From NCBI GenBank assembly GCA_004299145.1, contig SCQD01000004.1:1-42665 (forward strand): a stretch of 42,665 nt of DNA, in the 5' to 3' direction. Origin of the DNA: Methylococcaceae bacterium (GTDB lineage Bacteria; Pseudomonadota; Gammaproteobacteria; Methylococcales; Methylococcaceae). Below the pieces are notes generated by a model. It saw nothing but the letters and a program-made list of their open reading frames with translations, was not told the origin of the DNA and made no database searches. Below are positions 1 through 31,947 of this stretch, one piece after another (within the stretch, counting starts at the first letter, position 1; each line of letters starts with the position of its first letter). A program made the position numbers and the translations under genes.

Positions 1-108
1 GAAGGGAAGCGCATCGCTCGCGACAGATGCACTGTCGTCGGCACATCCTTCTGTGGCCCTCAATATAACGCTTGCAAAATGCGTATGAATTTTTGCCAGA
101 CAGCTTTT
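1..108. repeat. 108-bp direct repeat, left copy
   Basis: These 108 bases are identical, base for base, to 6134-6241. The copy starts at the first base of the window, so it may extend further left. Bases 44-60 equal the right arm of the large palindrome seen complete at 6109-6193, so the matching left arm probably lies just outside the window. The two copies bracket about 6 kb carrying the caspase, RAYT and TIR genes. After base 108 the sequences diverge at once. Confidence 0.95.
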
Positions 109-435
109 AAAGGGATTGCAGATGGGTTTCGGCTATCGCCTCTACCCATCCTACATTTTACCCATTTACCCAGGCTACGCGGGCTCGTCAGCGTAAGCTG
201 CTGCCAATGCCTGGCCGACCCCCAGGCCGAACTGGACACCGTGAGCCATTGCCTGGATGCCGTTGCCGCGCTGCTGGCGCCGGAGGAAGATTTGGATACG
301 GTCGGCCGGGACGATCTGGCCACTTTGCTCAGTTATTTGTTGGAACGGCGCCATTGGGCACTGGCGGCTTGCCAGCCCATGGGAACATCCGCTGAGCCCG
401 CGGACCGCGACGGGGAGGACGGCAACCATGACTGA
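79..435 (+). CDS. Small hypothetical protein, start uncertain
   Basis: I do not recognise this 118-residue product. Residues about 50-105 look protein-like, with an acidic helical stretch (LDAVAALLAPEEDLDTVG) followed by DLATLLSYLLERRHWALAAC. The first ten codons lie inside the 108-bp repeat, and the reading frame is open back to base 1, so the true start is unknown. No Shine-Dalgarno site precedes ATG 79. The N-terminus may be an artefact of repeat insertion into an older gene, leaving a truncated remnant. It lies 205 bp upstream of the caspase gene on the same strand, with a weak terminator-like hairpin between. The codon pattern of the second half supports coding, but no domain can be assigned. 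Confidence 0.4.
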   Translation: MRMNFCQTAFKGIADGFRLSPLPILHFTHLPRLRGLVSVSCCQCLADPQAELDTVSHCLDAVAALLAPEEDLDTVGRDDLATLLSYLLERRHWALAACQPMGTSAEPADRDGEDGNHD

Positions 436-473
436 GCCCTGGCCGAACCGGGTTAAAGAGGAAACACAGAAAC

Positions 474-503
474 CCGCACAGCGTAAGGCTTTGCGGCTTT
501 TTT
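474..503 (+). terminator. Weak terminator-like hairpin
   Basis: CCGCA (474-478) can pair with TGCGG (492-496), followed by six T residues at 498-503. The stem is only 5 bp with a 13-nt loop, so this is a tentative intrinsic terminator between the small ORF and the caspase gene. Confidence 0.3.
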
Positions 504-640
504 GTTGCGTCGCGCAAGCGCTATAATCCCGGAACAATCAGCGCCCAGCCCGGCCAGGCGATCATCGGGATATTTTTCACCCGCCGGCGCCGATTCCGTC
601 AGTACCATCTGGGCAGCAACCACATCAGGAGAACGCAACC

Positions 641-3535
641 ATGGCGCGTTGGCACACGATAGGGGCATTATGCTGGCTGCTGGCGGGTTATATGCCATCG
701 GCAATGGCCAAGGACGCGGGACCGGCCCCGGCCGGCGCGCCGCCCAGCCGGCCCTTCCTGCGCCTGGAAAGCGGCGGCCACACGGCGATCATCAAGCGGA
801 TCGCCGTGGACGCCGCCGGTCGTTACCTGGTGAGCGCCTCCGACGACAAAACCGCGCGGGTCTGGGACGCCGCCAGCGGGGCCTTGCTGCAAACCCTGCG
901 CCCGCCCCTGGGCGAGGGCAACGAAGGCAAGCTCTACGCCGTGGCCCTGTCGCCGGATGGTTCCACGGTGGCGCTGGGCGGCTGGACCGGTTACGGTTGG
1001 GACGGAACCAACTCCATCTACCTGTTCGACCGTGCCGACGGCCGGCTGGTCCGCCGCCTGGCCGGCCTGCCCAACGTCATCCACGACCTGGCTTTTTCCC
1101 GCGACGGCCGCTACCTGGCGGCGGCGCTGGGCGGTGCCAACGGCATCCGCGTTTACCGCAGCGACACCTGGCAGGAAGCATTCCGCGACAGCGATTACGG
1201 CGCGGCCAGCTATTCGCTGGACTTCGCCGCCGACGGGCGCTTGCTTGCCAGCAGTTTGGATGGCTATCTCCGCCTGTACGACGGGGACTTCCGGCTGCTC
1301 GCCCAGCGGGCCGCGCCGGGCGGCAAGCAGCCGTTGTTCGCCCGTTTCGCCCCGGACGGCGACCGGGTGGCGGCAGGCTTCGCCGATTCCACGGCGGTCA
1401 ACCTGCTGGCCGGCCGCGACCTGGCCTTCCTCTCCGCCCCGGACACCGCCCAGGCCGCCAACAGTAATTTGGGCAGCGTCGCCTGGAGCGCCGACGGCGG
1501 CCGGCTGCTGGCCGGCGGGCGTTACATCGAATCCGGCAAGTTTCCGCTGTTGGCCTGGAACGCCGCCGGCACGGGCCGGCCGCAAGCCTGGCCGGTGAGC
1601 ACCAACACCCTCATGGATCTGCGCCCCCTGCCCGGCGGCCGGCTGGCTTTCGCCGCGGCCGATCCGCTGCTCGGCGTGCTGGATGACACAGGCCGGCCGC
1701 TGTGGCGGCGCGGCGGCGGCATCCTGGATTTCCGCGGCCGTTGGAGCGATTTCCGCCTGTCGGCGGACGCCGGCGTGGTGGAGTTCGGCTTCAATACTTG
1801 GAATGCCGACGGCCGGCTGCAACGGCACCGCGCCCGCTTCGACCTGAAGCGGCCCGGCCTGGTGCTGGAGCCCACGCCCCTGGCCGGCCTGGCCGCGCCC
1901 AACACCCAGGGCGAGCCGCGCACCGATTGGCTCGATACCACCTCCCCCAAGGTGCGCGGCCAAGTGCTGACGCTAGAGGTTAACGAAACCGCCTTCAGCC
2001 TGGCCCTGGCCCCCGCCGGTACGGGCTTTTTGCTGGGCACCGAATGGCTGCTGCGCTACTACGACGCCCCCGGCCGGCTGCGCTGGCAAAGCGCCGTGCC
2101 CGGCACCGCCTGGGCGGTGAACCTGTCGGGCGATGCCCGTTATGCAGTGGCGGCGTTCGGCGACGGCAGCATCCGCTGGTACGAAAGCCAAGGGGGCAAG
2201 GAAGTGCTGGCCCTGTTCGTCCACCCGGACAGCCTCAACCCCGCCACGCCGCGCTGGATCGCCTGGACGCCGGAGGGCTTTTACGACGCCGCCCCCGGCG
2301 CGGAGGCGTTGATCGGCTACCACCTCAACCAGGGCGCCGGCCAAGCCGGCCGCTTCGTCGCCGCCGCCCAGTTGCGCGAGCGCTTTTACCGCCCCAGCCT
2401 CATCGCCCGCCGCTTGTCCGCGGAAGGCGACGCCCTGTTGGCCGAGGCCCTGCGGCAATTGGGCGATGTCGGCCAAGCCCTGGCCGAGGGCGCGCCGCCG
2501 CCGGTGGAATTGCTGGGCAGCCCCAAGGAAATCGCCCCCGGCGAGTTCGAATTGAGCCTGCGCGTACCGCCCGGCACCGAGCTGCGCTACCGCCTGGACG
2601 GCAAGGACGAGCTGCAAGGCCGCGACGCCGGCCTGCCCGGCATCGGCCGGGACGTGGTCAGCCGCCGCTTTCGCTTGCCGGAAGGCGAGCACCGCCTGGA
2701 AATCACCGCCGGCAACGCGCGCGGCGTGGCTTCCGAGCCTTTGCAGGTGGAACTGGCGGTGCGCCCGCGCAGCGCGCAGCCGGCTTTGCGCGTGCTGGCG
2801 GTGGGCATCCAGGATTACCGCGACCACGCTTTGGCGCAAGGGGTGAAATTCGCCGCGGCGGATGCCGCCGGCATCGCCGCGCGCTTCCAGAGCCAGGGCG
2901 CCAAGCTGTACAGCCGGGTGGCGGTGCACACCCTGCGCGATGGGGAAGCCAGCGGCGCCGCCATCCGCCAGGCCATGGCCGAGGCCGCCGCCCAAACCGG
3001 GCCGGACGACGTGTTCGTGCTGTACCTGGCCGGCCACGGCTTGGCAGAAGACGACGAATACCACTTCGTGCCCTGGGACGCCCGCTATACCAACCGCGAT
3101 GAGCTGCTCCAGCACAGCCTGAACGAAGCCAGCCTGCGCGACATGCTGGCCGCCATCCCGGCGCACAAAACCCTGGTGATGCTGGACTCCTGCGACTCCG
3201 GCGCGTTCATCACCCACCAGGGCCGCGGCCCCCTGGGCGAAAAAAGCGCCATCGACCGCCTGGCCCGGCTCAGCGGACGCGCCATCCTGGCCGCCGCCAG
3301 CGATAAAAACATGGCCCTGGAAGGCGAAAACGGCCACGGCGCCTTCACCTACGCCCTGCTGGAAGGCCTGTCCGGCAAAGCCAACCGCGACAACAGCGAC
3401 AGCATCGACGTGGGCGAACTGGCCGACTACGTGCAAGACCGCCTGCCGGAACTCACCAAGCAAAAATGGGGCTACGAACAATTTCCCCTGCACGAACTCA
3501 ACGGCGCATCGTTCCCGGTACTACCGAAGCCGTAG
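641..3535 (+). CDS. Exported WD40-repeat caspase-family (C14) protease
   Basis: The 964-residue protein starts at ATG 641, with AGGAG about 10 nt upstream. Residues 1-23 form a signal peptide ending AMA before Lys24, so export to the periplasm is likely. Residues about 40-520 contain WD40-type propeller repeats (for example SASDDKTARVWD). A linker region about 520-710 follows, then a caspase-like domain from about 716 to 930. The catalytic dyad is visible as His799 in YLAGHG and Cys851 in MLDSCDSG; many bacterial relatives read DACHSG, so the residue after Cys differs. Known members (orthocaspase/metacaspase-like) cleave after basic residues and often act in stress or cell-death signalling; the substrate here is unknown. 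The gene sits in the repeat-bounded block with the RAYT and the TIR gene, all on the plus strand. Family assignment is firm, and a role in defence or regulated death is inference. Confidence 0.93.
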   Translation: MARWHTIGALCWLLAGYMPSAMAKDAGPAPAGAPPSRPFLRLESGGHTAIIKRIAVDAAGRYLVSASDDKTARVWDAASGALLQTLRPPLGEGNEGKLYAVALSPDGSTVALGGWTGYGWDGTNSIYLFDRADGRLVRRLAGLPNVIHDLAFSRDGRYLAAALGGANGIRVYRSDTWQEAFRDSDYGAASYSLDFAADGRLLASSLDGYLRLYDGDFRLLAQRAAPGGKQPLFARFAPDGDRVAAGFADSTAVNLLAGRDLAFLSAPDTAQAANSNLGSVAWSADGGRLLAGGRYIESGKFPLLAWNAAGTGRPQAWPVSTNTLMDLRPLPGGRLAFAAADPLLGVLDDTGRPLWRRGGGILDFRGRWSDFRLSADAGVVEFGFNTWNADGRLQRHRARFDLKRPGLVLEPTPLAGLAAPNTQGEPRTDWLDTTSPKVRGQVLTLEVNETAFSLALAPAGTGFLLGTEWLLRYYDAPGRLRWQSAVPGTAWAVNLSGDARYAVAAFGDGSIRWYESQGGKEVLALFVHPDSLNPATPRWIAWTPEGFYDAAPGAEALIGYHLNQGAGQAGRFVAAAQLRERFYRPSLIARRLSAEGDALLAEALRQLGDVGQALAEGAPPPVELLGSPKEIAPGEFELSLRVPPGTELRYRLDGKDELQGRDAGLPGIGRDVVSRRFRLPEGEHRLEITAGNARGVASEPLQVELAVRPRSAQPALRVLAVGIQDYRDHALAQGVKFAAADAAGIAARFQSQGAKLYSRVAVHTLRDGEASGAAIRQAMAEAAAQTGPDDVFVLYLAGHGLAEDDEYHFVPWDARYTNRDELLQHSLNEASLRDMLAAIPAHKTLVMLDSCDSGAFITHQGRGPLGEKSAIDRLARLSGRAILAAASDKNMALEGENGHGAFTYALLEGLSGKANRDNSDSIDVGELADYVQDRLPELTKQKWGYEQFPLHELNGASFPVLPKP

Positions 3536-3542
3536 CTCCCCT

Positions 3543-3655
3543 CGTTCCCACGCGCCGCGTGGGAACGCAGCCCGGGCGCGCCGCGCCCCGTGTCGAGCCG
3601 GCGCCTACGCGGCGCAGCGCGCCGCCACGGCGTTCCCACGCAGCGCGTGGGAACG
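3543..3655. repeat. Pair of REP palindromes upstream of the RAYT
   Basis: Two near-identical hairpins lie between the caspase and RAYT genes. The first has 11-bp arms CGTTCCCACGC (3543-3553) and GCGTGGGAACG (3557-3567). The second has the same arms at 3631-3641 and 3645-3655. Each has a 3-nt loop. A GC-rich tract (3568-3597) beside the first hairpin is the reverse complement of the tract beside the hairpins at 4282-4336 and 4446-4500, so REPs flank the RAYT in inverted orientation. This is the usual arrangement of a RAYT with its cognate REPs. Confidence 0.9.
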
Positions 3656-3689
3656 AGCGATACATCCAGCCATACGAAGGAGCAAAACC

Positions 3690-4226
3690 ATGGGCCGTAG
3701 CCGTTACCGCGTGGTGGGTAAAAACGTCCCCCACTTCATCACCTGCACCGTTTTGAACTGGATTCCCCTGTTCACCCGCCCGCAAACGGCAGAGATTGTC
3801 CTGGAGGCCATCCAGCACCGGCAGGCACAGTCGCTGTGGCGGGTTTACGGCTACGTGCTGTTGGAAAACCATTTACACATGGTCGTCCAGGCCGACGACC
3901 TGGCCGGCGAGGTGGCGCGCTTCAAGTCATACACCGCGCGCCGTTTGATCGACTGTCTGGAAGCCTGCCAGGCGGAGCGGTTATTGAAGCAATTGGCGTT
4001 TTTCCGCAAGGCGCACAAGCATGACCGCGACTATCAGGTGTGGGAGGAGGGCGCGCACCCGCAAGCCATAGAAAATGAGCAGGTGTTGCGGCAAAAGCTG
4101 GAGTATATCCACCAGAACCCGGTGAAGCGCGGCTATGTGGACGATCCGGCGCACTGGCGCTATTCCAGCGCCAGGAATTATGCCGGCCAGCCGGGCTTGG
4201 TGCCGGTGTTTAAGGAGTGGCTGTGA
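3690..4226 (+). CDS. REP-associated tyrosine transposase (RAYT, IS200-like Y1 family)
   Basis: This 178-residue protein has the Y1 transposase features of RAYTs. HFITCTV lies near the N-terminus, the metal-binding HxH motif is ENHLHMVV (His61 and His63), and a candidate nucleophile is Tyr81 in RFKSYTARR. RAYTs are single-strand DNA transposases that bind and cut REP hairpins and are usually single-copy, domesticated genes. The length is normal for the family and there is no frameshift. ATG 3690 has a strong AAGGAG upstream. REP hairpins lie on both sides, in inverted orientation. The TGA stop (4224-4226) overlaps ATG 4226 of the first tandem-repeat frame, and the last 15 or so codons are themselves the 3' part of that tandem repeat. 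Location between the caspase and TIR genes suggests it may have shaped this island. Confidence 0.92.
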   Translation: MGRSRYRVVGKNVPHFITCTVLNWIPLFTRPQTAEIVLEAIQHRQAQSLWRVYGYVLLENHLHMVVQADDLAGEVARFKSYTARRLIDCLEACQAERLLKQLAFFRKAHKHDRDYQVWEEGAHPQAIENEQVLRQKLEYIHQNPVKRGYVDDPAHWRYSSARNYAGQPGLVPVFKEWL

Positions 4227-4390
4227 TGGGCGCTGCTGCGCGTGATGCCGGGGTAGGGTTTTCACGCCGTATTGCCCTGGCCCGATACGGGGCGCGGCGC
4301 GCCCGGGCTGCATTCCCACGCGGCGCGTGGGAACGAGGAAATGATGTCGGCCAGCCGGGCTTGGTGCCGGTGTTTAAGGAGTGGCTGTGA
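4226..4390 (+). CDS. 54-residue frame in tandem unit 1
   Basis: ATG 4226 shares its A with the RAYT stop codon and has AAGGAG (4212-4217) 8 nt upstream. The frame runs through the REP hairpin and the RAYT tail, ending ...PVFKEWL like the RAYT, and stops at TGA 4388-4390. The product is rich in Ala, Arg and Gly. Its middle (AAFPRGAWERG) is encoded by the REP palindrome. It may be translated by coupling from the RAYT, but may be a by-product of the repeat with no function as a protein. Confidence 0.35.
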   Translation: MGAAARDAGVGFSRRIALARYGARRARAAFPRGAWERGNDVGQPGLVPVFKEWL

Positions 4391-4554
4391 TGGGCGCTGC
4401 GCCGCGTGATGCCGGGGTAGGGTTTTCACGCTGTATTGCCCTGGCCCGATACGGGGCGCGGCGCGCCCGAGCTGCATTCCCACGCAGCGCGTGGGAACGA
4501 GGAAATGATGCCGGCCAGCCGGGCTTGGTGCCGGTGTTTAAGGAGTGGCTGTGA
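4390..4554 (+). CDS. 54-residue frame in tandem unit 2
   Basis: This second copy starts at ATG 4390, again overlapping the preceding TGA by one base and preceded by AAGGAG. It encodes a near-identical 54-residue peptide; most of the base differences between the units change an amino acid, but none introduces a stop. Its own TGA (4552-4554) overlaps the ATG of the TIR gene. Both frames staying open despite substitutions is mildly suggestive of translation, but the repeats could simply be recent. Confidence 0.35.
   Translation: MGAAPRDAGVGFSRCIALARYGARRARAAFPRSAWERGNDAGQPGLVPVFKEWL
4540..4553 (+). promoter_or_regulatory. RAYT-derived ribosome-binding site of the TIR gene
   Basis: AAGGAG at 4540-4545 with an 8-nt spacer precedes ATG 4554. 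These bases are the third copy of the RAYT 3' end (codons for FKEWL and the stop). The TIR gene therefore takes its ribosome-binding site and start codon from transposase-derived sequence. A GTG at 4545 also opens the frame but overlaps the site, so ATG 4554 is preferred. Confidence 0.7.
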
Positions 4555-6074
4555 TGGGCGGTGCTGCATTCCCAATCGGCGCTGGGGAACGGGGGAGGCG
4601 CTTTCGCGTCGCCCTGTCTTTTCCCGGCGAACACCGTGCATACGTGGCACAAATCGCCGATTGCCTGGCCCAGCAATTGGGCCGACGGCAGGTGTTTTAC
4701 GACCGTTGGTACGAGGTGGAACTGGCCAAGCCCAATCTGGACCTGCATTTGCAGGCCATCTATCACGATCAGGCCGATCTGGTGGTGGTGTTTTTGTGCA
4801 AAGAGTACAACCAAAAACAATGGTGCGGCCTGGAGTGGCGCGCTTTGCGGGATTTGATCAAGCGGCGCGAGGACGCGCTGTTGCTGCCTATCCGCCTGGA
4901 CGACGCCGACATTCCCGGCCTGCTGTCCATCGACGGCTATGTGGACGCCCAAGGCCGGCCGGCCGAGGAAATCGCCGCGCTGATTTTGCAGCGGCTGGGG
5001 ATGGCGCGGCCGTTCGACCCGCCGCGCCGGGCCTGGCGCAAATGGCTGGCGGCGGCCCTCTTGCTGGCCGGTTTGGGCTTGGCAAGCTGGCTGTTCTATG
5101 TCCAGCCGCGCCAAGAGGAAATCGCCCGCCACCTGGACCTGGCGCGCCGCTATATGGACACCGGCCAATACCGGGAGGCGCAGGACGAGTACGCCCAGGC
5201 GGAGCATTTGGCGGCACCTTTTGACGGCGGGGCGGCGCGTCTGGGGCGGGAAAAAGCCGCCATCGGCGCGCGCTGGCCGTTGGCCGATGCCGGTGAACGC
5301 GAGGCTTTGGCGCGCCGGCTGGATGCCTTGCTGGAGCAGCGGGGCGAGGACGCCGATGTGCTGCTGCTGGATGGCGACCGCCATTATTGGAGCGGGCTGG
5401 ACGATGGGAAGTCCCGCGCTTTGCCTCGGTATCGGCAAGCGTTGGAACGGCGCCAGCAACTGGCCGAGGCCGCTTACCGGCTGGGGGTGCTGTTCGACGA
5501 GGCCGGGGATGGGCGGGCGCCGGACTATTTCGAGGCCGCCTACCGCCAGTCCCCGCAAACGCCGCACTACGCCGTGGATTACGCCGCCACGCTGCTCAAG
5601 CAAGGGCGCTACCGGGCGGCCATCGACGCGCTGGCGCCGGTCGCCGATTATCCCCTGGCGCGCCTGGAGCAAGCCAAAGGCCATTGGGCGTTGGGCGAAT
5701 TCGCCCAGGCGGAAGTGCTACAGGCGGAGGCGGTCAACGATTTGGCCAATCCGGCCAGCGCCGCAAACCCGCGCCTGCGCTATAGCTGGAAGCTGGACTT
5801 GCCCGACGCGGGCCGCGTGCTGCAACTGTCCACTGACGGGGGCAAGCGCTGCTACGCCGGCTTGGCCCTGGCGGCCAGCCGGTTTTTCCAGGGCCGGGAG
5901 CAGGCCGCGCAACAGGCCGCCGGCCAGGCCGGGTGTCCGGCGGATTCGGCGGCGGTGCGGGATGCGCTGGCGCTGGACCTGCGGTGCTACGCCTCAGCCG
6001 GTTTGGCGAACGGGCCGGAGCGGTTGCGGAAATTTTTGCCGCTCCTCGGCGCCCCGTCGGCCACCGAGCGATAG
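4554..6074 (+). CDS. TIR domain - transmembrane - TPR-like protein
   Basis: This 506-residue protein begins with a TIR domain at about residues 18-150. RFRVALSFPGEH is the first strand motif, FYDRWYE follows, and EYNQKQWCGLEW contains the predicted catalytic Glu94. Such bacterial TIR domains often hydrolyse NAD+ or make signalling nucleotides. One hydrophobic segment (about 163-183, LAAALLLAGLGLASWLF) should anchor it in the inner membrane with the TIR domain cytoplasmic. The remaining 320 residues are helical TPR-like repeats, probably periplasmic, which could sense a ligand or partner. The first 16 residues (MGGAAFPIGAGERGRR) match REP-encoded sequence rather than the TIR family. The gene shares strand and island with the caspase gene. 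TIR assignment is firm; NADase activity and a defence role are inferred. Confidence 0.92.
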   Translation: MGGAAFPIGAGERGRRFRVALSFPGEHRAYVAQIADCLAQQLGRRQVFYDRWYEVELAKPNLDLHLQAIYHDQADLVVVFLCKEYNQKQWCGLEWRALRDLIKRREDALLLPIRLDDADIPGLLSIDGYVDAQGRPAEEIAALILQRLGMARPFDPPRRAWRKWLAAALLLAGLGLASWLFYVQPRQEEIARHLDLARRYMDTGQYREAQDEYAQAEHLAAPFDGGAARLGREKAAIGARWPLADAGEREALARRLDALLEQRGEDADVLLLDGDRHYWSGLDDGKSRALPRYRQALERRQQLAEAAYRLGVLFDEAGDGRAPDYFEAAYRQSPQTPHYAVDYAATLLKQGRYRAAIDALAPVADYPLARLEQAKGHWALGEFAQAEVLQAEAVNDLANPASAANPRLRYSWKLDLPDAGRVLQLSTDGGKRCYAGLALAASRFFQGREQAAQQAAGQAGCPADSAAVRDALALDLRCYASAGLANGPERLRKFLPLLGAPSATER

Positions 6075-6080
6075 CGCTCG
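6065..6080 (+). other. Hairpin across the TIR gene stop codon
   Basis: CGAGCG (6065-6070) and CGCTCG (6075-6080) form a perfect 6-bp stem with loop ATAG, which contains the stop codon. No T-run follows, so it is not a standard terminator; it may stabilise the transcript end. Confidence 0.4.
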
Positions 6081-6108
6081 TACCCAGGCAGCGGACATCG
6101 GGGCCATC

Positions 6109-6193
6109 AGGGCCATAGAAGGATGCGCTGAACGAAGGGAAGCGCATCGCTCGCGACAGATGCACTGTCGTCGGCACATCCTTCTGTGGCCCT
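6109..6193. repeat. Large branched palindrome (85 bp)
   Basis: The outer arms AGGGCCATAGAAGGATG (6109-6125) and CATCCTTCTGTGGCCCT (6177-6193) pair over 17 positions with a single G-T wobble. Inside are two smaller hairpins: CGCT/AGCG (6126-6129 with 6141-6144) and CGACAG/CTGTCG (6154-6159 with 6165-6170). The fold is a three-way, cloverleaf-like structure. An alternative stem GATGCGCT/AGCGCATC (6122-6129 with 6141-6148) competes with the outer arm. Its right part is shared with bases 1-60. It resembles a REP or MITE-type element but differs from the TTCCCACGC family at the RAYT. Confidence 0.8.
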
Positions 6194-6241
6194 CAATATA
6201 ACGCTTGCAAAATGCGTATGAATTTTTGCCAGACAGCTTTT
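6134..6241. repeat. 108-bp direct repeat, right copy
   Basis: This is an exact copy of bases 1-108. It includes most of the branched palindrome plus 48 bases beyond it, so the identity is not just that of a shared hairpin. That extra part holds a small inverted repeat (GCAAAA...TTTTGC). Its last base is also the last base of the Uma2 stop codon (minus strand), so the repeat boundary coincides with a gene end. Confidence 0.95.
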
Positions 6242-6855
6242 TAAGCCTCAAACACTTCCGTCAAATCCACCGCCAAATCGGGAAACAAATGCGGCGTTGC
6301 GATATCGTTGTCCGTGTACATGGCTTTTAGCTGGTAACGCCCAGCCTCATCCAGCACAAACTGATGAACCGCCTGGTCATTCGGATAAACAATCCAATAC
6401 TCCTGCACGCCGCTTTCCTGATAAAGCTCATATTTGATCCGCAACTCCCGTTTGGAGTTGCCTTTGGACAAAATCTCGACTATCCAATCGGGCGCGCCGT
6501 TACAACCTTGCAGGTCCAGTATATCCAGGCTACATATCACGCACAGATCAGGCTGCACCACGCTGTGAATATCCTGACTGGCCAGGATGGATTTTTTGCG
6601 ATCATATAAGCGCACGTCAAACGGCGCGAAAAAAAACTGGCAGGGCTTATGGCGAAAATAATTATAAAAAATGCCGCCAAAATTCCTGGCAATGCGCTGA
6701 TGTCCCACATTCGGCGCGGGCGACATCGGCATGATTTTGCCCTTGATCAATTCGACGGCTTCCTCGAATTGCCAGGTCAAATAATCGGCATAGCTGTAGA
6801 TTTTATTCGAATCCAATTGTGATAATTGCGTGATATTAGCCATCGATGTAACCAT
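6241..6855 (-). CDS. Uma2 family putative endonuclease (DUF820)
   Basis: This 204-residue protein matches the Uma2 pattern, a PD-(D/E)XK-like fold. SYADYLTWQ is followed by VELIKGKIMPMSP, a central QPDLCV (Asp103), then APDWIVEILS (Glu127), KYELY (Lys141) and QEYWIVYP. Members are abundant in cyanobacteria and many environmental bacteria, and their substrates are mostly unknown. The C-terminus (FPDLAVDLTEVF) is complete, and the stop codon abuts the 108-bp repeat. Base composition is visibly more AT-rich than the caspase and TIR genes, suggesting separate origin. ATG 6855 was taken; an internal ATG at 6843 is also possible, and neither has a strong ribosome site. Confidence 0.87.
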   Translation of the reverse strand: MVTSMANITQLSQLDSNKIYSYADYLTWQFEEAVELIKGKIMPMSPAPNVGHQRIARNFGGIFYNYFRHKPCQFFFAPFDVRLYDRKKSILASQDIHSVVQPDLCVICSLDILDLQGCNGAPDWIVEILSKGNSKRELRIKYELYQESGVQEYWIVYPNDQAVHQFVLDEAGRYQLKAMYTDNDIATPHLFPDLAVDLTEVFEA

Positions 6856-7094: not shown

Positions 7095-8228
7095 TTATAT
7101 CAAGCTGAAATAACCATCGCCGGCACTGCCCGCGTCGATTTGCAAATCGGCCATGTCCACGCCGACCAGTTTGATGGTGTCCGCTCCGCCGCCGCCGGCT
7201 CTGACCGTGCCCGCAGCCCCCAACTGGATCAGCGTGCCGGATTTAATGGATTGCAGGCTGTAATCGGCGTCGTTGAAAATGCCGTCGCCGTTCTGATCGA
7301 CAGTCTGTATCAGGTCGGCCGTGCTGAAGTCCTTGATCACGTCGTTGCCGATAATCAGGCCTGTGTAGTCGAACAAGTCCGTTCCCGCACCGCCGGTCAA
7401 TACGTCTTTGCCCAGCCCACCGAGCAATGTGTCCGCACCGGCTTCTCCGTTCAGCCGGTCGTTGCCGCTGCCGCCGTCTTGCTGATCGTCCCCCAGGCCG
7501 CCGGCCAAGTCGTCGAGACCGGTTCCTCCCGATAAATCGTCATCGCCCTCGCCGCCGTCTTCGTGGTCGTTGCCGATGCCGCCAATCAGGCTGTCCATGC
7601 CCAAGTTTCCAGCCAAATCGTCATCGCCTGAGCCGCCATTTACAGCATCGTTGCCGGTGCCGCCGATCAGGCTGTCGTTGCCGAAATCGCCATACAAACT
7701 GTCGTCGCCGTCGCCGCCGTCTTCGTTGTCATGGCCATCGCCCCCATTCAAGTCGTCGTTCCCCAGGCCGCCGAACAGCCGGTCGTCACCGTCGCCGCCA
7801 TCGGCGTGATCGTTGCCGTCGCCGCCGTTCATGTCGTCGTTATCCAGACCGCCGAACAATTGATCGTCGCCGTCGCCGCCGTCTTCGTGGTCTTGACCGA
7901 TGCCGCCGTACAAGTCGTCGTCGCCCAGGTCGCCGAACAGCTGGTCGTCGCCATCGTCGCCGTTGACGTGATCGTGGCCGTTGCCGCCGCTCAGGCTGTC
8001 GTTGCCAAATGCGCCGTAGACCGTGTCGTCGCCTTCGCCGCCGTCTTCCTGGTCATGGCCGTTGCCGCCGTCGATGTGATCGCTGCCCAATCCACCGAAC
8101 AGGATGTCGTCGCTGTCGCCGCCGATCTCGTGATCGTCACCGTCAGTACCATGATCATCATCGTGTTCGTAATAGTCATCGCTGTCTTTCGTGATTTTCA
8201 AATAGCCTGTTGCGAGTCGTGTAGCCAT
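7095..8228 (-). CDS. RTX calcium-binding repeat protein, His/Asp-rich
   Basis: Start ATG 8228 has GGAG 8 nt upstream, giving 377 residues; an in-frame ATG at 8288 lacks such a site. After a short N-terminus (MATRLATGYLKITKDSDDYY) and an acidic tract, residues about 35-290 are tandem RTX nonapeptides such as GGDGDDRLFGGLGNDDLNGG, repeating about every 18 residues. Such repeats bind Ca2+ as a beta-roll, usually in proteins secreted by type I systems. Alternate units carry unusual GHDHEDGG-type His/Asp/Glu segments. The C-terminal part (about 290-377) has LFDYTGLIIGNDVIKDF and a final DGYFSLI, resembling a C-terminal secretion region. No RTX toxin or enzyme domain is present. No HlyD or TolC gene is adjacent. 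A role as an extracellular or surface structural protein is inferred. Confidence 0.88.
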   Translation of the reverse strand: MATRLATGYLKITKDSDDYYEHDDDHGTDGDDHEIGGDSDDILFGGLGSDHIDGGNGHDQEDGGEGDDTVYGAFGNDSLSGGNGHDHVNGDDGDDQLFGDLGDDDLYGGIGQDHEDGGDGDDQLFGGLDNDDMNGGDGNDHADGGDGDDRLFGGLGNDDLNGGDGHDNEDGGDGDDSLYGDFGNDSLIGGTGNDAVNGGSGDDDLAGNLGMDSLIGGIGNDHEDGGEGDDDLSGGTGLDDLAGGLGDDQQDGGSGNDRLNGEAGADTLLGGLGKDVLTGGAGTDLFDYTGLIIGNDVIKDFSTADLIQTVDQNGDGIFNDADYSLQSIKSGTLIQLGAAGTVRAGGGGADTIKLVGVDMADLQIDAGSAGDGYFSLI

Positions 8229-8626
8229 GTTAGCCGCTCCGGTTAAGTCGATGGTAGGTAGGTTTGCGACCGGATATTTTCTGGTCATATTTCATACTAA
8301 GCAGGAAGCGTGCCATCACGCCACATAAATCATAATCCTTTGAATTAACAAAATATTGATGCAAATTCCAGAACCACGCCGATGCGGCGATAGCTGCGGT
8401 CAATGCGGGTTGCGCAGAAAGCAGCAACATTTTTTGCAGTAACTTCCGCCATGGGCCTTTTGCCGGCCTTGTTCCCCCTTCAGGCCCGGGCATTATGAGC
8501 CGGGGTAGTGAAAAAGGGCCGACTGATCTATGCTGTGCCCATAATTAATCCAAGGTTTTAAAAACCGCCATGGCTAGCCGCAAGCTGCAGCCAGACTGAA
8601 TCGCCTCAAGCTATTTAATTGTCGAT
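8229..8626. other. Divergent intergenic region between RTX and kinase genes
   Basis: These 398 bp lie between two divergent genes and should hold both promoters. I could not identify convincing -35/-10 pairs, a riboswitch or an RNA gene. A weak hairpin (CCCGG...CCGGG near 8485-8505) is the only structure I noticed. Confidence 0.5.
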
Positions 8627-15668: not shown

Positions 15669-15725
15669 GTAGGGGTACGCTGTGCGTACCTTCAGGCCCA
15701 GAAAGGTACGCACAGCGTACCCTAC
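15669..15725. repeat. GTAGGGTACGC palindrome, copy 1
   Basis: Left arm 15669-15690 and right arm 15705-15725 form a stem of about 21 bp with one extra G, around a 14-nt loop. It lies between the convergent HD-GYP and ODP genes and could act as a two-way transcription stop. Near-identical elements occur at 29017 and 31890. Confidence 0.9.
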
Positions 15726-15756
15726 GGGGAAGCCGCCCTCCTCCTGCTTCATCATT

Positions 15757-22359: not shown

Positions 22360-24810
22360 CTAAATGACCACCATATCAGCCGCAGTCAGTTCCGGATGCG
22401 TGGCCGTGCCCAGTATGCAAACGGGCAAGGCGGCGCCTGCGCCACTGCCGTCGGCGTCGTAGAACAAGGCGCCGGTGGCCGCTTTGTAAAACAGGTAATC
22501 GTCGGCGTCGACGACTCTGCCGATGCGGAAATGCTGCGCCGCCAATTCGCCGGTAACCTCCAGGCTGCTGAATATCGCCTGGTCCAATTCGAGGGTGTCC
22601 TCGGCAACATCGAAGTCGAGCACGAGGTCCAGGTTGGCCTTGGCGTTCAAGGCGCTGGTGAAACGAAAGCCGTCACCGCCGCCGCCGCCGCTGAGGCTGT
22701 CGTCGCCGAAGCCGCCGTTGATCACGTTGGCATTGCCGTCGCCGCTCAATGCGTCGCTATGGCGGCTGCCGACCAGATTTTCGAAACCTTGCAGCCTGTC
22801 GGTGCCGGAACCTCCGCTGGCTTGTACTTCGAGCACCGCCAGGCTGATGCTCACGCCGACTTCGCCGGCCACGCCGACGCGGTAGGACAGCGTGTCGATG
22901 CCGTCACCGCCGTCCAGCAGGTTGTTGCCGCTGCCTGCGTATATCAGGTTATCCAGCGCATTGCCGGTAATTCCGGTGATGCCCTCCCCCACCACGCCGT
23001 TTTCGACGTGCTTGGGCAGGGTGTAGGCCACCAGGTGGCTGGTTACGCCGTCCACACCGCCGGTTGCGGTTTCAAAAACCCGGTCGGCGGGATCGTCCAC
23101 CACATACACGTCGTCGCCGTTGCCGCCTGCCAGCCGGTCCGCACCGCCGCCGCCGTTGAGCAGGTCTTTGCCGTTGCCGCCGAGCAGGCTGTCGGCGCCC
23201 GCCCCACCGTTCAGCAAGTCGCGGCGATTGTCGCCGGCCAGGCGATCAGTACCCACGCCGCCGGTCAGCCTGTCGTTGCCGTTGCCGCCGCGCATGCGAT
23301 CCGCGCCATTGCCGCCGAGCTGCGCGTCGTTGCCGACGCCGCCGAGCATGCGGTCGGCGCCGTTGCCGCCGTACAGCAGGTCGTTGCCCTGGTTGCCTTT
23401 GAGTATGTCGTTGCCCTGGTTGCCGGCCAGCGTGTCGTTGCCGCGCAAACCGCGCAGGGTATCCCGGCTGCCGGCCAGCGCGCCGTCGCCGGTCAGGTTG
23501 TCTTTGCCGTCGCTGCCGGTGACCAGGGTAACCTGGTAAACAAAAGGATTGGCGGCCAGAAAAATGTCCGACCATTTGCCGTCGTTGTCGCCAGGCACCA
23601 GGTTGGTGGCGTAGCTTTCGAATGCCACGAAACGCCCGTTGGCGGACAGACTGGGGTTGTAGCTGGCCTGATTGCCTTCGCTGCCGTCCGCGGCCACCGA
23701 CAGGCGCACGATGGCGCCGGTTTTGCCGTCTTTGATGAAGATATCCGATACGCCGTTGTCATCGCCGGCCACCAGGTTGTCGGCGTCGCTACGAAACGCC
23801 ACGTAGCGCCCCGCCGCCGAAATGCTGGGCGTGTAACTGCCGCCGTTGCCTGGCAACCCCGTTGCATCGGCGGATATCAGCGTAACGGCGCCGGTCTGGA
23901 GGTCTTTGCTGAATACGTCCGGCACGCCGTTGCCGTCTTCCGGCGCCAAGTTGTCGGCATCGCTACGGAAAGCCAGGTGCAAACCGTCGGCGGACAGGCT
24001 GGGCGTATAGCTGCCGTTGTTGGCCTGCGCGCCGCTGGACGTGGTGGACAACCGGCTGATGGCACCGCTCAGGAGGTTTTTGAGAAAAATGTCCGAGGCC
24101 TGGTTGCTGTCATCCTTCACCAGATTGCCGGCATCGCTGCGGAAAGCCAGCACGCTGCCGTCGGCGGACAAACTGGGCGTGTAGCTGCCGCCATCGCCCT
24201 GCTTGCCGTTCGCCGTGGTGGACAGCAGCAGGACGGCGCCGGTTTGAGTGTTTTTGACAAACACGTCGGCGGCGTCGTTGCCGTCGTCCGCCACCAGGTT
24301 GGCGGCGAGGCTGTCGAACGCGACGTAGCGCCCGTCGGCGGACAAGCTGGGGTTATCGGCCGTACCGTTGGCCGATGCGCCCTGCGCCGTGGTGGACACG
24401 GCGCTGACGGCGCCGGACAGGCCGTCTTCGAGCAGCACGTCCGGCACGCCGTTGTCGTTGCCGGGCACCAGATTGCCGGCATCGCTGGCAAACACGACGT
24501 AAGCGCCGTCGGCGGAAACGGCGGGATTGTAGCTGGCGTCATCGCCCGGCACGCCCTGGGCGGTTCGGGAAACCAGCGTGATGGCGCCGGTCGACAGGTT
24601 TTGCAGAAACACGTCGGCAACCGCGTTGCCGTCGCCCAGCACCAGATTGGCGGCATCGGTGCTGAACACGGCGTAGGTGGCGCGGGCGGTCAGGCCGGGG
24701 TTGAAATGATCGCGCTCGCCCGGCGGCGAAATCTGGCGGATTGCCGGTGCCGGTGCGAAAAAGCCGGCTGCGCTGGAAAGTTCTTTATCGGACATATGCG
24801 GCGGCGCCAT
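22360..24810 (-). CDS. Seven-bladed propeller fused to RTX repeats
   Basis: ATG 24810 gives 816 residues; ATG 24795 is an alternative. The frame extends further upstream but would overlap the preceding gene, so longer starts are rejected. Residues about 45-430 are seven tandem repeats of about 58 residues, each with SLSADGRYVAF, a DA.NLV.GD core and DVFLKN..TGA, as in TolB/PD40-like propellers. RTX nonapeptides follow (about 430-580: GGNGADRMRGGNGNDRL), then a spacer with further RTX motifs, and a C-terminal domain ending LTAADMVVI. Such architecture is typical of secreted, Ca2+-binding proteins of type I systems; no exporter is adjacent. It follows the HD-GYP gene by 20 bp. Function (adhesin, matrix or enzyme-like) is unknown. 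Confidence 0.88.
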   Translation of the reverse strand: MAPPHMSDKELSSAAGFFAPAPAIRQISPPGERDHFNPGLTARATYAVFSTDAANLVLGDGNAVADVFLQNLSTGAITLVSRTAQGVPGDDASYNPAVSADGAYVVFASDAGNLVPGNDNGVPDVLLEDGLSGAVSAVSTTAQGASANGTADNPSLSADGRYVAFDSLAANLVADDGNDAADVFVKNTQTGAVLLLSTTANGKQGDGGSYTPSLSADGSVLAFRSDAGNLVKDDSNQASDIFLKNLLSGAISRLSTTSSGAQANNGSYTPSLSADGLHLAFRSDADNLAPEDGNGVPDVFSKDLQTGAVTLISADATGLPGNGGSYTPSISAAGRYVAFRSDADNLVAGDDNGVSDIFIKDGKTGAIVRLSVAADGSEGNQASYNPSLSANGRFVAFESYATNLVPGDNDGKWSDIFLAANPFVYQVTLVTGSDGKDNLTGDGALAGSRDTLRGLRGNDTLAGNQGNDILKGNQGNDLLYGGNGADRMLGGVGNDAQLGGNGADRMRGGNGNDRLTGGVGTDRLAGDNRRDLLNGGAGADSLLGGNGKDLLNGGGGADRLAGGNGDDVYVVDDPADRVFETATGGVDGVTSHLVAYTLPKHVENGVVGEGITGITGNALDNLIYAGSGNNLLDGGDGIDTLSYRVGVAGEVGVSISLAVLEVQASGGSGTDRLQGFENLVGSRHSDALSGDGNANVINGGFGDDSLSGGGGGDGFRFTSALNAKANLDLVLDFDVAEDTLELDQAIFSSLEVTGELAAQHFRIGRVVDADDYLFYKAATGALFYDADGSGAGAALPVCILGTATHPELTAADMVVI

Positions 24811-24830
24811 GACGGGACGGAAAGGGATAT

Positions 24831-26144
24831 TCAAGCCAACTCGGCCAGACAGCGATCCACCAGAGCCACCCAGCGGCCAAACGCCGTAGACAGGGCTTTG
24901 GGTTCTATGGATTGGTAGACGGCGCGGTGGCGGTTGACGTCGTGCAGGATTTGCGCAAATTGAAAGAGGATTTCGCGCATCACGCGGGCGATTTTTTTGT
25001 GGTTCAAATCGCGCATCATGCGGGTGATTTTTTTCTGGTCTGCCGCTGTGTCCGGTTTGATCATCGCCAGCAGCGCATCCATATTGCCGAGATCCATGCC
25101 CACATTGGCCAGCGACTTGGGGATTTTGTGCATTTTCACGGCCAAAGGCGCCAGCTCCGATACATCGCCGATGGAGGGGGGCAATGCCTGCCAAGCGCTA
25201 TAAATTTCCTGGATTTTTTCCGCCATGTGCCGGGTTTTGTCCACCGACAGGAATTCCTCGGCGTGGTCCTTGCTGGATAATGCGGCGAGCAGGTTGATGA
25301 CGGTGTCCAAAAGCAGCGGATCGAACTGGGCCCGGCTGGATTTTAAAACCATTTCCAGGTATTCGTTGGATTCCTTTTGCGACAAGCCGGTAATCAGTTC
25401 GGCCAGAGCGACGATGCGTCCATTCTGGCCGACTTGAGCGCCTTTGAGGCCATTCGGGTAACCGCTGCCGTCCAGGCGTTCGTGGTGCTGCAATATCGGC
25501 AGGGTGACAGAGGGGTGATAGCTGGGAATGCCTTGCAGCAATGACACGGCGATGCACGGGTGTTCATACATTTGCCGCCACTCCGCCCAGGACAGTTTGC
25601 GCTTGCTGTCCAGCAGGGCGGGATCAATGAACAAATTGCCGAAATCGTGGCACAGGCCGATTATCGCCAACAATTCGAGGTCCGCCATCTCCAGCTTGGC
25701 GGACAGCCCCAGGCAGACGCAGGCCACCGAGACTTCCAGGGGGTGAGCGTAGTGCTCCGGCAATTGCCTGGCCAGCAAAGATAAAGCGTTGAGCACCAGC
25801 GGCGGCAATGACAAGCGGTTGTAGCAATCCAGCGCCGTACCGTAGCGTTGCGTGGCGCGCAGCAGCAGCTCCAGGTTGGGCGAACGCGACACCGCGCGCT
25901 GCATCTGTACTTTAATCGCCGGCACGCTGAGCGGTTCAGGAAAACGCAGGCTGGCAAGCAGCGGCTTGGCCAGCGCGTGCTCGCTGAGTTTTGCCAGTAC
26001 CCCGGCATCGATAGTGCGGCCTTTATCCAGCAAGCGCTCGCCCACCTCGGTATAGAGGGTCTCCGTAGTCATGATCGGCGGGCTGGTCAGGCAAAAATTG
26101 GCCAGGTGTTTGTAAAAATGCTGCTGTTGCTGCTGCGCAATCAC
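24831..26144 (-). CDS. HD-GYP family protein with N-terminal helical region
   Basis: GTG 26144 is proposed as the start because AGGGAG lies 6 nt before it; ATG 26072 is an alternative without a ribosome site. The 437-residue protein has an unassigned N-terminal half, then a HD-GYP-like domain: GLCHDFGNLFIDPALL (HD pair), HHERLDGSGYPNGLKG (second His pair and GYP) and IVALAELITGL. Metal-binding positions appear kept, so c-di-GMP hydrolysis is plausible, although spacing and flanking motifs diverge from the copy at 14333. The C-terminal 140 residues are helical and unassigned. It precedes the propeller-RTX gene by 20 bp, which suggests joint expression. Confidence 0.85.
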   Translation of the reverse strand: MIAQQQQQHFYKHLANFCLTSPPIMTTETLYTEVGERLLDKGRTIDAGVLAKLSEHALAKPLLASLRFPEPLSVPAIKVQMQRAVSRSPNLELLLRATQRYGTALDCYNRLSLPPLVLNALSLLARQLPEHYAHPLEVSVACVCLGLSAKLEMADLELLAIIGLCHDFGNLFIDPALLDSKRKLSWAEWRQMYEHPCIAVSLLQGIPSYHPSVTLPILQHHERLDGSGYPNGLKGAQVGQNGRIVALAELITGLSQKESNEYLEMVLKSSRAQFDPLLLDTVINLLAALSSKDHAEEFLSVDKTRHMAEKIQEIYSAWQALPPSIGDVSELAPLAVKMHKIPKSLANVGMDLGNMDALLAMIKPDTAADQKKITRMMRDLNHKKIARVMREILFQFAQILHDVNRHRAVYQSIEPKALSTAFGRWVALVDRCLAELA

Positions 26145-29016: not shown

Positions 29017-29074
29017 GTAGGGTACGCTGTGCGTACCTTCGAGGGCATCGAACGGTACGCACAGCGTACCCTAC
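29017..29074. repeat. GTAGGGTACGC palindrome, copy 2
   Basis: Perfect 21-bp arms (29017-29037 and 29054-29074) surround a loop that itself holds TTCGA/TCGAA. The element is the only structure I see in the 350-bp gap between pepN and the DUF423 gene (28878-29227). It could attenuate read-through into pepN or stabilise the upstream transcript. Confidence 0.93.
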
Positions 29075-29227
29075 ATCAATGGGCGTGGTCGGGAAGTTAT
29101 ATCCTTACCGTCTCAATGTCCGTCGAATATCGCAGACAGCGTTTTGGCAGCCAGGATTAAGATTCAGCCATTCATCATGCGCCGATTCTACCATCGGGCA
29201 CGTTCACTCGCTCACGACGGGGCGGTG

Positions 29228-31870: not shown

Positions 31871-31889
31871 GGAAGGCTCCTGGTTGGAT

Positions 31890-31947
31890 GTAGGGTACGC
31901 CGTGCGTACAGTTCGACGCCCTCGAAGGTACGCGCAGCGTACCCTAC
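31890..31947. repeat. GTAGGGTACGC palindrome, copy 3, in the nadE leader
   Basis: Arms at 31890-31909 and 31927-31947 pair with few mismatches, and the loop holds TTCGA/TCGAA as in copy 2. It starts 19 bp before the nadE start codon and lies 52 bp after the lapB stop, so a lapB-nadE read-through transcript would carry the hairpin just before the nadE ribosome-binding region. Confidence 0.88.

Follow-up and report, generated by a model that had tools for sequence, protein, structure and literature searches.

Adjacent genes for a WD40-caspase and a TIR-TM-TPR protein recur in a fixed order across four bacterial phyla, and we read them as a conserved two-gene module that may work across the cell envelope, a reading to which we assign a probability of about one in two. 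It is built on gene order, close spacing, restriction to one caspase clade, co-divergence, conserved catalytic residues and domain content, all of which are observed, and on export of the caspase and a membrane topology of its partner that are predicted from sequence. With an apparently exported caspase beside a protein whose TIR domain is predicted inside and whose TPR arm is predicted outside, the pair resembles a device for alarm or cell death that spans the membrane.

The locus and its genes

The window, that is, the whole stretch of 42,665 nt analyzed here, is the complete contig C69 of genome G000 (353 contigs, 4.64 Mb), whose same-family kin in sequence collections include methanotroph bins named Methylococcaceae. 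Open reading frame and profile searches found three intact plus-strand genes between two copies of a 108-bp sequence. This arrangement, including the positions, agrees with a preliminary description of the DNA. The features are as follows.

1 to 108 (+): left 108-bp copy, cut through by the contig end; outside the module
641 to 3535 (+): WD40-caspase, 964 aa, with signal peptide MARWHTIGALCWLLAGYMPSAMA, N-terminal beta-propeller repeats, C-terminal caspase fold and His799/Cys851 (Pfam, NCBIfam, AF2)
3540 to 3658 (no strand): REP palindrome pair directly 3' of the caspase stop, the 5' end of the RAYT/REP insertion (inverted repeats, fold, genome matches)
3690 to 4226 (+): RAYT, 178 aa, HUH motif ENHLHMVV, inserted between the partner genes (NF047646, motif)
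4176 to 4567 (+): three 164-bp tandem units, the third truncated; each contains the 3' end of the RAYT gene, and the first two contain a REP
4554 to 6074 (+): TIR-TM-TPR protein, 506 aa, with a REP-derived N-terminus of about 14 aa, a TIR domain, one TM helix and a TPR arm with a conserved C-terminus (Pfam, AF2, homology)
6109 to 6241 (+): right 108-bp copy (6134-6241), with the remainder of a hairpin (6109-6193) and a probable insertion-sequence relic (6199-6241); outside the module

Rfam and tRNA scans of the window returned no match. Scanned genes elsewhere in it include kinases, an ABC transporter, a PepN-type peptidase and an S1-domain protein. Two minus-strand genes (7098-8288 and 22363-25194) encode RTX-type calcium-binding repeat proteins, the second of which also bears PD40 propeller repeats. 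A minus-strand Uma2-family gene (6244-6855) has 10 more copies in genome G000 at E<=1e-30, one of them with an internal stop. A 61-bp inverted repeat pair (29017-29077 and 31887-31947; 93% complementary, 2.8 kb apart) is related to positions 15696-15727 and thus represents another dispersed repeat family.

The pair across bacteria

A caspase search using one genome per species yielded 80 loci, from which a tree of 80 caspases was built, and TM-TPR partners were detected downstream with profiles made from the first relatives. A single clade of 23 caspases (SH-aLRT 99) accounts for 19 of the 20 partnered rows of the tree. Nineteen of its members are followed by a TM-TPR gene (with a TIR domain in 16), two are not, and two lie at contig ends; among the 57 caspases outside the clade, 44 have no partner, 12 lie at contig ends, and one has a weak TPR match. 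When fragmentary loci are included, there are 21 pairs, 17 of them with TIR. The pair is found in Pseudomonadota, Acidobacteriota (L047, L050, L052 and L056), Cyanobacteriota (L065 and L089) and a Desulfuromonadales bin (L067), and the order of caspase followed by TIR partner is constant over these four phyla. Spacing is tight: 15 of the 21 junctions fall within -4 to +6 nt, with overlaps of the form ATGAG, GTGAG or TGATG, the last of these in the nearest relative that has the pair (L033; caspase 58-59% identical). Distances among the caspases parallel those among the TPR ectodomains (Mantel r=0.84, 0/5000 permutations), a correlation that shared descent of neighboring genes could also give. 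The earlier proposal that the caspase and the TIR protein belong together is thus borne out by an ordered pair that recurs in four phyla, marks one clade and keeps its catalytic residues.

Two caspases of the clade (L054 4920-7940 and L083) have no detected TM-TPR partner. In the Desulfuromonadales bin (L067) and an Accumulibacter bin (L104), the TIR protein gene is followed in tandem by a further caspase start, and pairs may be repeated there.

The neighborhood of the pair was surveyed with PADLOC at 1e-10 on 90 flanking proteins. Matches were few, a raw count taken without a baseline, and several were to generic helicase profiles; no obvious defense island around the pair was seen among these proteins, which are mostly products of ordinary genes. 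A role for the pair in anti-phage defense is possible, although the neighborhood gives no pointer to it. These ordinary flanks, together with the four of 21 partners that have TM and TPR parts but no TIR (L037, L053, L058 and L081), in which the TIR is evidently not strictly required, and with caspase relatives outside the clade that have no TIR partner, would suit a pair devoted to envelope or developmental signaling and unrelated to phage. There, the caspase would process envelope proteins, the TM-TPR protein would be mainly a scaffold, and the output of the TIR domain would be regulatory rather than lethal. We consider this rather unlikely, given that 17 of the 21 partners do carry a TIR, that its glutamate is conserved, that the TIR of the window appears to have been replaced by another TIR rather than lost, and that the patchy presence of the pair looks accessory, with a close caspase in only five same-family genomes among those searched.

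The WD40-caspase

The caspase of the window matches Pfam Peptidase_C14 (4e-16) and WD40 (6e-21), and its AF2 model has a pLDDT of 87.4. Its His/Cys dyad is part of a site that is intact in all 17 paired caspases aligned. Signal peptides and topology were judged from hydropathy and inspection. Across the caspase family, N-termini inspected by eye are mostly signal-peptide-like or carry a lipobox; within the clade, several are of the lipobox type and most others are signal-peptide-like. The caspases look exported. Among solved structures, the caspase domain alone has only marginal relatives, GSU0716 and metacaspase-4, and in a Foldseek search with the whole model the list of matches was filled by propellers.

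Two described groups invite comparison. First, the EACC1-caspase system, which is System 4 of Kaur et al. 2020 (PMC7159879), is presented in the passages concerned as a two-gene system in which a TM-helix protein and a caspase are proposed to act at the membrane. The window likewise joins a TM-helix gene to a caspase gene, and its caspase matches the profile for EACC1-associated caspases (NF047832) at 1.3e-26. The score of 93.4 bits, however, is under the curated cut-off of 140, the caspase domain is C-terminal rather than N-terminal, and the partner is a downstream TIR-TM-TPR gene in place of the upstream EACC1 gene of those passages. On cut-off, domain position and upstream gene, then, the window caspase falls outside that system. 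Second, WD40-metacaspases/orthocaspases share the combination of WD40 and caspase parts, and an N-terminal helix has been noted in them as a possible signal peptide (Asplund-Samuelsson 2012, PMC3501461). They differ in that a TIR-TM-TPR partner gene is absent from the passages on operons in the main text of that paper.

The TIR-TM-TPR protein

The open reading frame at 4545-6074, for which the ATG at 4554 is the better start, matches Pfam TIR_2 at 2.6e-14, and the AF2 model of its product has a pLDDT of 87.7. Its TIR domain keeps the catalytic-type glutamate (in WCGLEW), which is aligned in 14 of 14 TIRs. A single TM helix follows, with positive charge flanking its N-side, and then a TPR ectodomain homologous to those of the partners in relatives. 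This pattern, a single TM helix behind the TIR with net positive charge on the N-side of the helix, recurs in most partners; the exceptions are a few TM flanks without a positive N-side and two partners without a TM helix above threshold. By the positive-inside rule, this charge places the TIR in the cytoplasm and the TPR arm outside, as a prediction. The recurrence of these export and topology signals also supports, again as a prediction, the earlier suggestion that the caspase and the TIR act on either side of the membrane.

The TIR of the window is not typical of its family. Among other partners, that of L035 has a TIR whose matches to solved structures include the NADase Cat1 (1.9e-9) and, at a weak level, AbTIR, and partner TIRs match the PADLOC ThsB profile PDLC00420, down to 4.5e-64, with 14 of 22 aligned proteins matching it (over the TIR half of the profile in those inspected). 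The window protein matched no PADLOC family, ThsB profiles PDLC00419/00420/00436 included, and a sequence search of solved structures gave no convincing relative of its TIR; in the Foldseek/VIA search with the model, TPR chains filled the matches and the TIR part was barely tested. The window TIR is 21% identical to those of the other partners, which average 38% among themselves, whereas its TPR arm is as close to the other arms as they are to one another (28% versus 27%). It would seem that the original TIR was replaced by one of another subtype with the catalytic-type glutamate kept, and such a swap of TIR for TIR suggests that TIR activity is under selection. Among relatives, the TIR-TM most similar to that of the window is in genome G036 (L039 4901-6169), of the same SFPGE TIR subtype as the window and with 48% identity over TIR and TM. 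That protein has a beta-rich-looking ectodomain instead of TPR, and no caspase was seen on its contig stretch, which suggests that TIR-TM units combine with different outer domains. With an unusual TIR subtype, an ordinary arm and the nearest TIR-TM joined to another ectodomain, it seems that TIR domains are traded, the arm remaining paired with the caspase. Genome G000 also has one more TM-TPR gene of this family, whose product lacks TIR (L040 6702-7895, minus strand; G000:C308); no caspase was seen on that stretch, and an unrelated ORF lies upstream.

Cooperation of TIR and caspase proteins in bacteria has so far been described as type IV Thoeris, in which the two are encoded in one operon and a nucleotide made by the TIR protein activates the caspase-like protease (PMC12847820, citing Rousset et al. 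2025). As far as the passages on this system go, the resemblance is clear: the two genes are adjacent in one operon, separated in the window by the RAYT insertion, both catalytic sites are conserved, with the TIR glutamate present in 14/14, and partner TIRs match the ThsB profile. The pair could then work as type IV Thoeris does, with cyclic ADP-ribose made by the TIR activating the caspase in the cytoplasm, provided that the apparent signal peptides stay attached as anchors and the protease is on the inside. But unlike the protease in those passages, the caspase here is predicted to be exported and has a WD40 propeller as its N-terminal part, and the TIR protein is held in the membrane by an additional TM helix and has a TPR arm as well. 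A cytoplasmic nucleotide could not readily reach a protease outside the cytoplasm, where the lipobox-type and signal-peptide-like N-termini would put it, and this argues against activation by cytoplasmic N7-cADPR. We therefore hold a Thoeris-like mechanism to be improbable.

The RAYT/REP insertion

The gene between the two partners encodes a RAYT with a Y1-type HUH motif and flanking REP palindromes, which matches the NCBIfam REP-associated tyrosine transposase family NF047646 above its cut-off (8e-29). The genome has one further full-length RAYT-like gene, a paralogue on C315 with 56% identity, plus fragments. The 25-bp REP palindrome has 110 forward and 116 reverse matches in genome G000 (control, 0), and the REP pair at 3540-3658 has a predicted fold of -93.8 kcal/mol. 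In relatives, no RAYT was seen at the caspase/TIR junction, and in most of them the caspase stop codon touches or overlaps the start codon of the next gene, whereas in the window a REP begins almost immediately after the caspase stop and is followed by about 1 kb of RAYT/REP sequence. On these grounds, the RAYT/REP cassette is best read as an insertion that split the gene pair later, in this lineage. The preliminary description had the two effectors linked by a transposase; this link is not supported, as the gene was not seen at the junctions of relatives and belongs to a REP/RAYT locus in a genome with more than 100 REP palindromes, and we rejected the RAYT as a component of the system on the same observation in relatives.

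The third 164-bp unit supplies an AAGGAG (4540-4545) and the ATG at 4554, and the first 14 or so residues of the TIR-TM-TPR protein are encoded by a degenerate REP and are of low confidence in the AF2 model. The REP unit thus seems to furnish the TIR gene with both ribosome-binding site and start codon, and the locus illustrates how a RAYT/REP array can enter an operon and provide the start signals of its neighbor.

The flanking repeats

The two 108-bp copies (1-108 and 6134-6241) are, as first described, identical over all 108 bases and diverge from base 109. It had been proposed that they bound a mobile two-effector block, which would have the RAYT as its mover. The identical copies do enclose the genes, and with an insertion-sequence-like 3' part, integration by recombination between the copies is conceivable, the copies themselves being its only support. 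Several observations speak otherwise. The window is a whole contig, so that the left copy is truncated by the contig end and its extent to the left is out of view. The right copy is part of a full hairpin (6109-6193; predicted fold of -51 kcal/mol as a single strand) that has at least 10 other partial copies scattered through genome G000, at 82-93% identity, and a left copy starting inside this hairpin plausibly explains the assembly break there. The 3' part (6199-6241) recurs once elsewhere, at the start of contig C311 after the apparent last codons of a transposase; a Pfam search of the 32-aa transposase-like peptide there gave no match, and read by eye, the element is a probable insertion-sequence relic. 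The repeat is therefore in part a member of a scattered family, as the hairpin is dispersed, and in part not, as the full 108-bp copy occurs only twice in the genome. The RAYT, moreover, was not seen at the junction in relatives, and no empty site with one repeat copy was found, for the reason that the right flank is common to none of the relatives searched. RAYTs are not known to have a cargo-moving role. Matches in plasmid records spanned at most 59% of the caspase, and viral contigs yielded just two caspase matches, both distant. With no empty site in relatives, partial plasmid matches and two distant viral-contig matches, we rejected the mobile block, which is very improbable. A short dispersed repeat to the right of the left copy (121-157) has matches on at least six other contigs.

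Discussion

How the module might work can be outlined from its parts. The first gene would encode a Sec-exported WD40-caspase, often a lipoprotein, that is periplasmic or sits on a membrane of the envelope, and the second a protein that crosses the membrane once, with a cytoplasmic TIR domain and a periplasmic TPR arm. The WD40 propeller, the TPR arm or both would sense an event at the envelope, such as phage entry, damage or the signal of a neighbor. The caspase would then meet the TPR arm and probably cleave either the arm itself or a bound protein, and as a result the TIR domains would cluster and cleave NAD+, through either depletion or signal production, with growth stop or cell death as the outcome. 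In this outline we infer the interaction of caspase and arm, the direction of signaling, the NADase activity, the purpose and the cell-death outcome.

More generally, and more tentatively than for the module itself, the pairs could represent an undescribed class of receptor-protease systems with exchangeable TIRs, where control passes from a caspase in the periplasm, by way of a transmembrane TPR arm, to a TIR NADase in the cytoplasm. In such a class the caspase would stand upstream of the TIR, the reverse of type IV Thoeris. We found no description of the caspase/TIR-TM-TPR pair in the literature, which is weak evidence, as most subscription journals lay outside the search.

Two genes suffice to test the system directly. 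If the proposed working is true, a protease outside and a TIR domain inside would represent a version of these death enzymes that senses the envelope in the manner of a receptor, in a layout nearer to that of animal Toll-type receptors.
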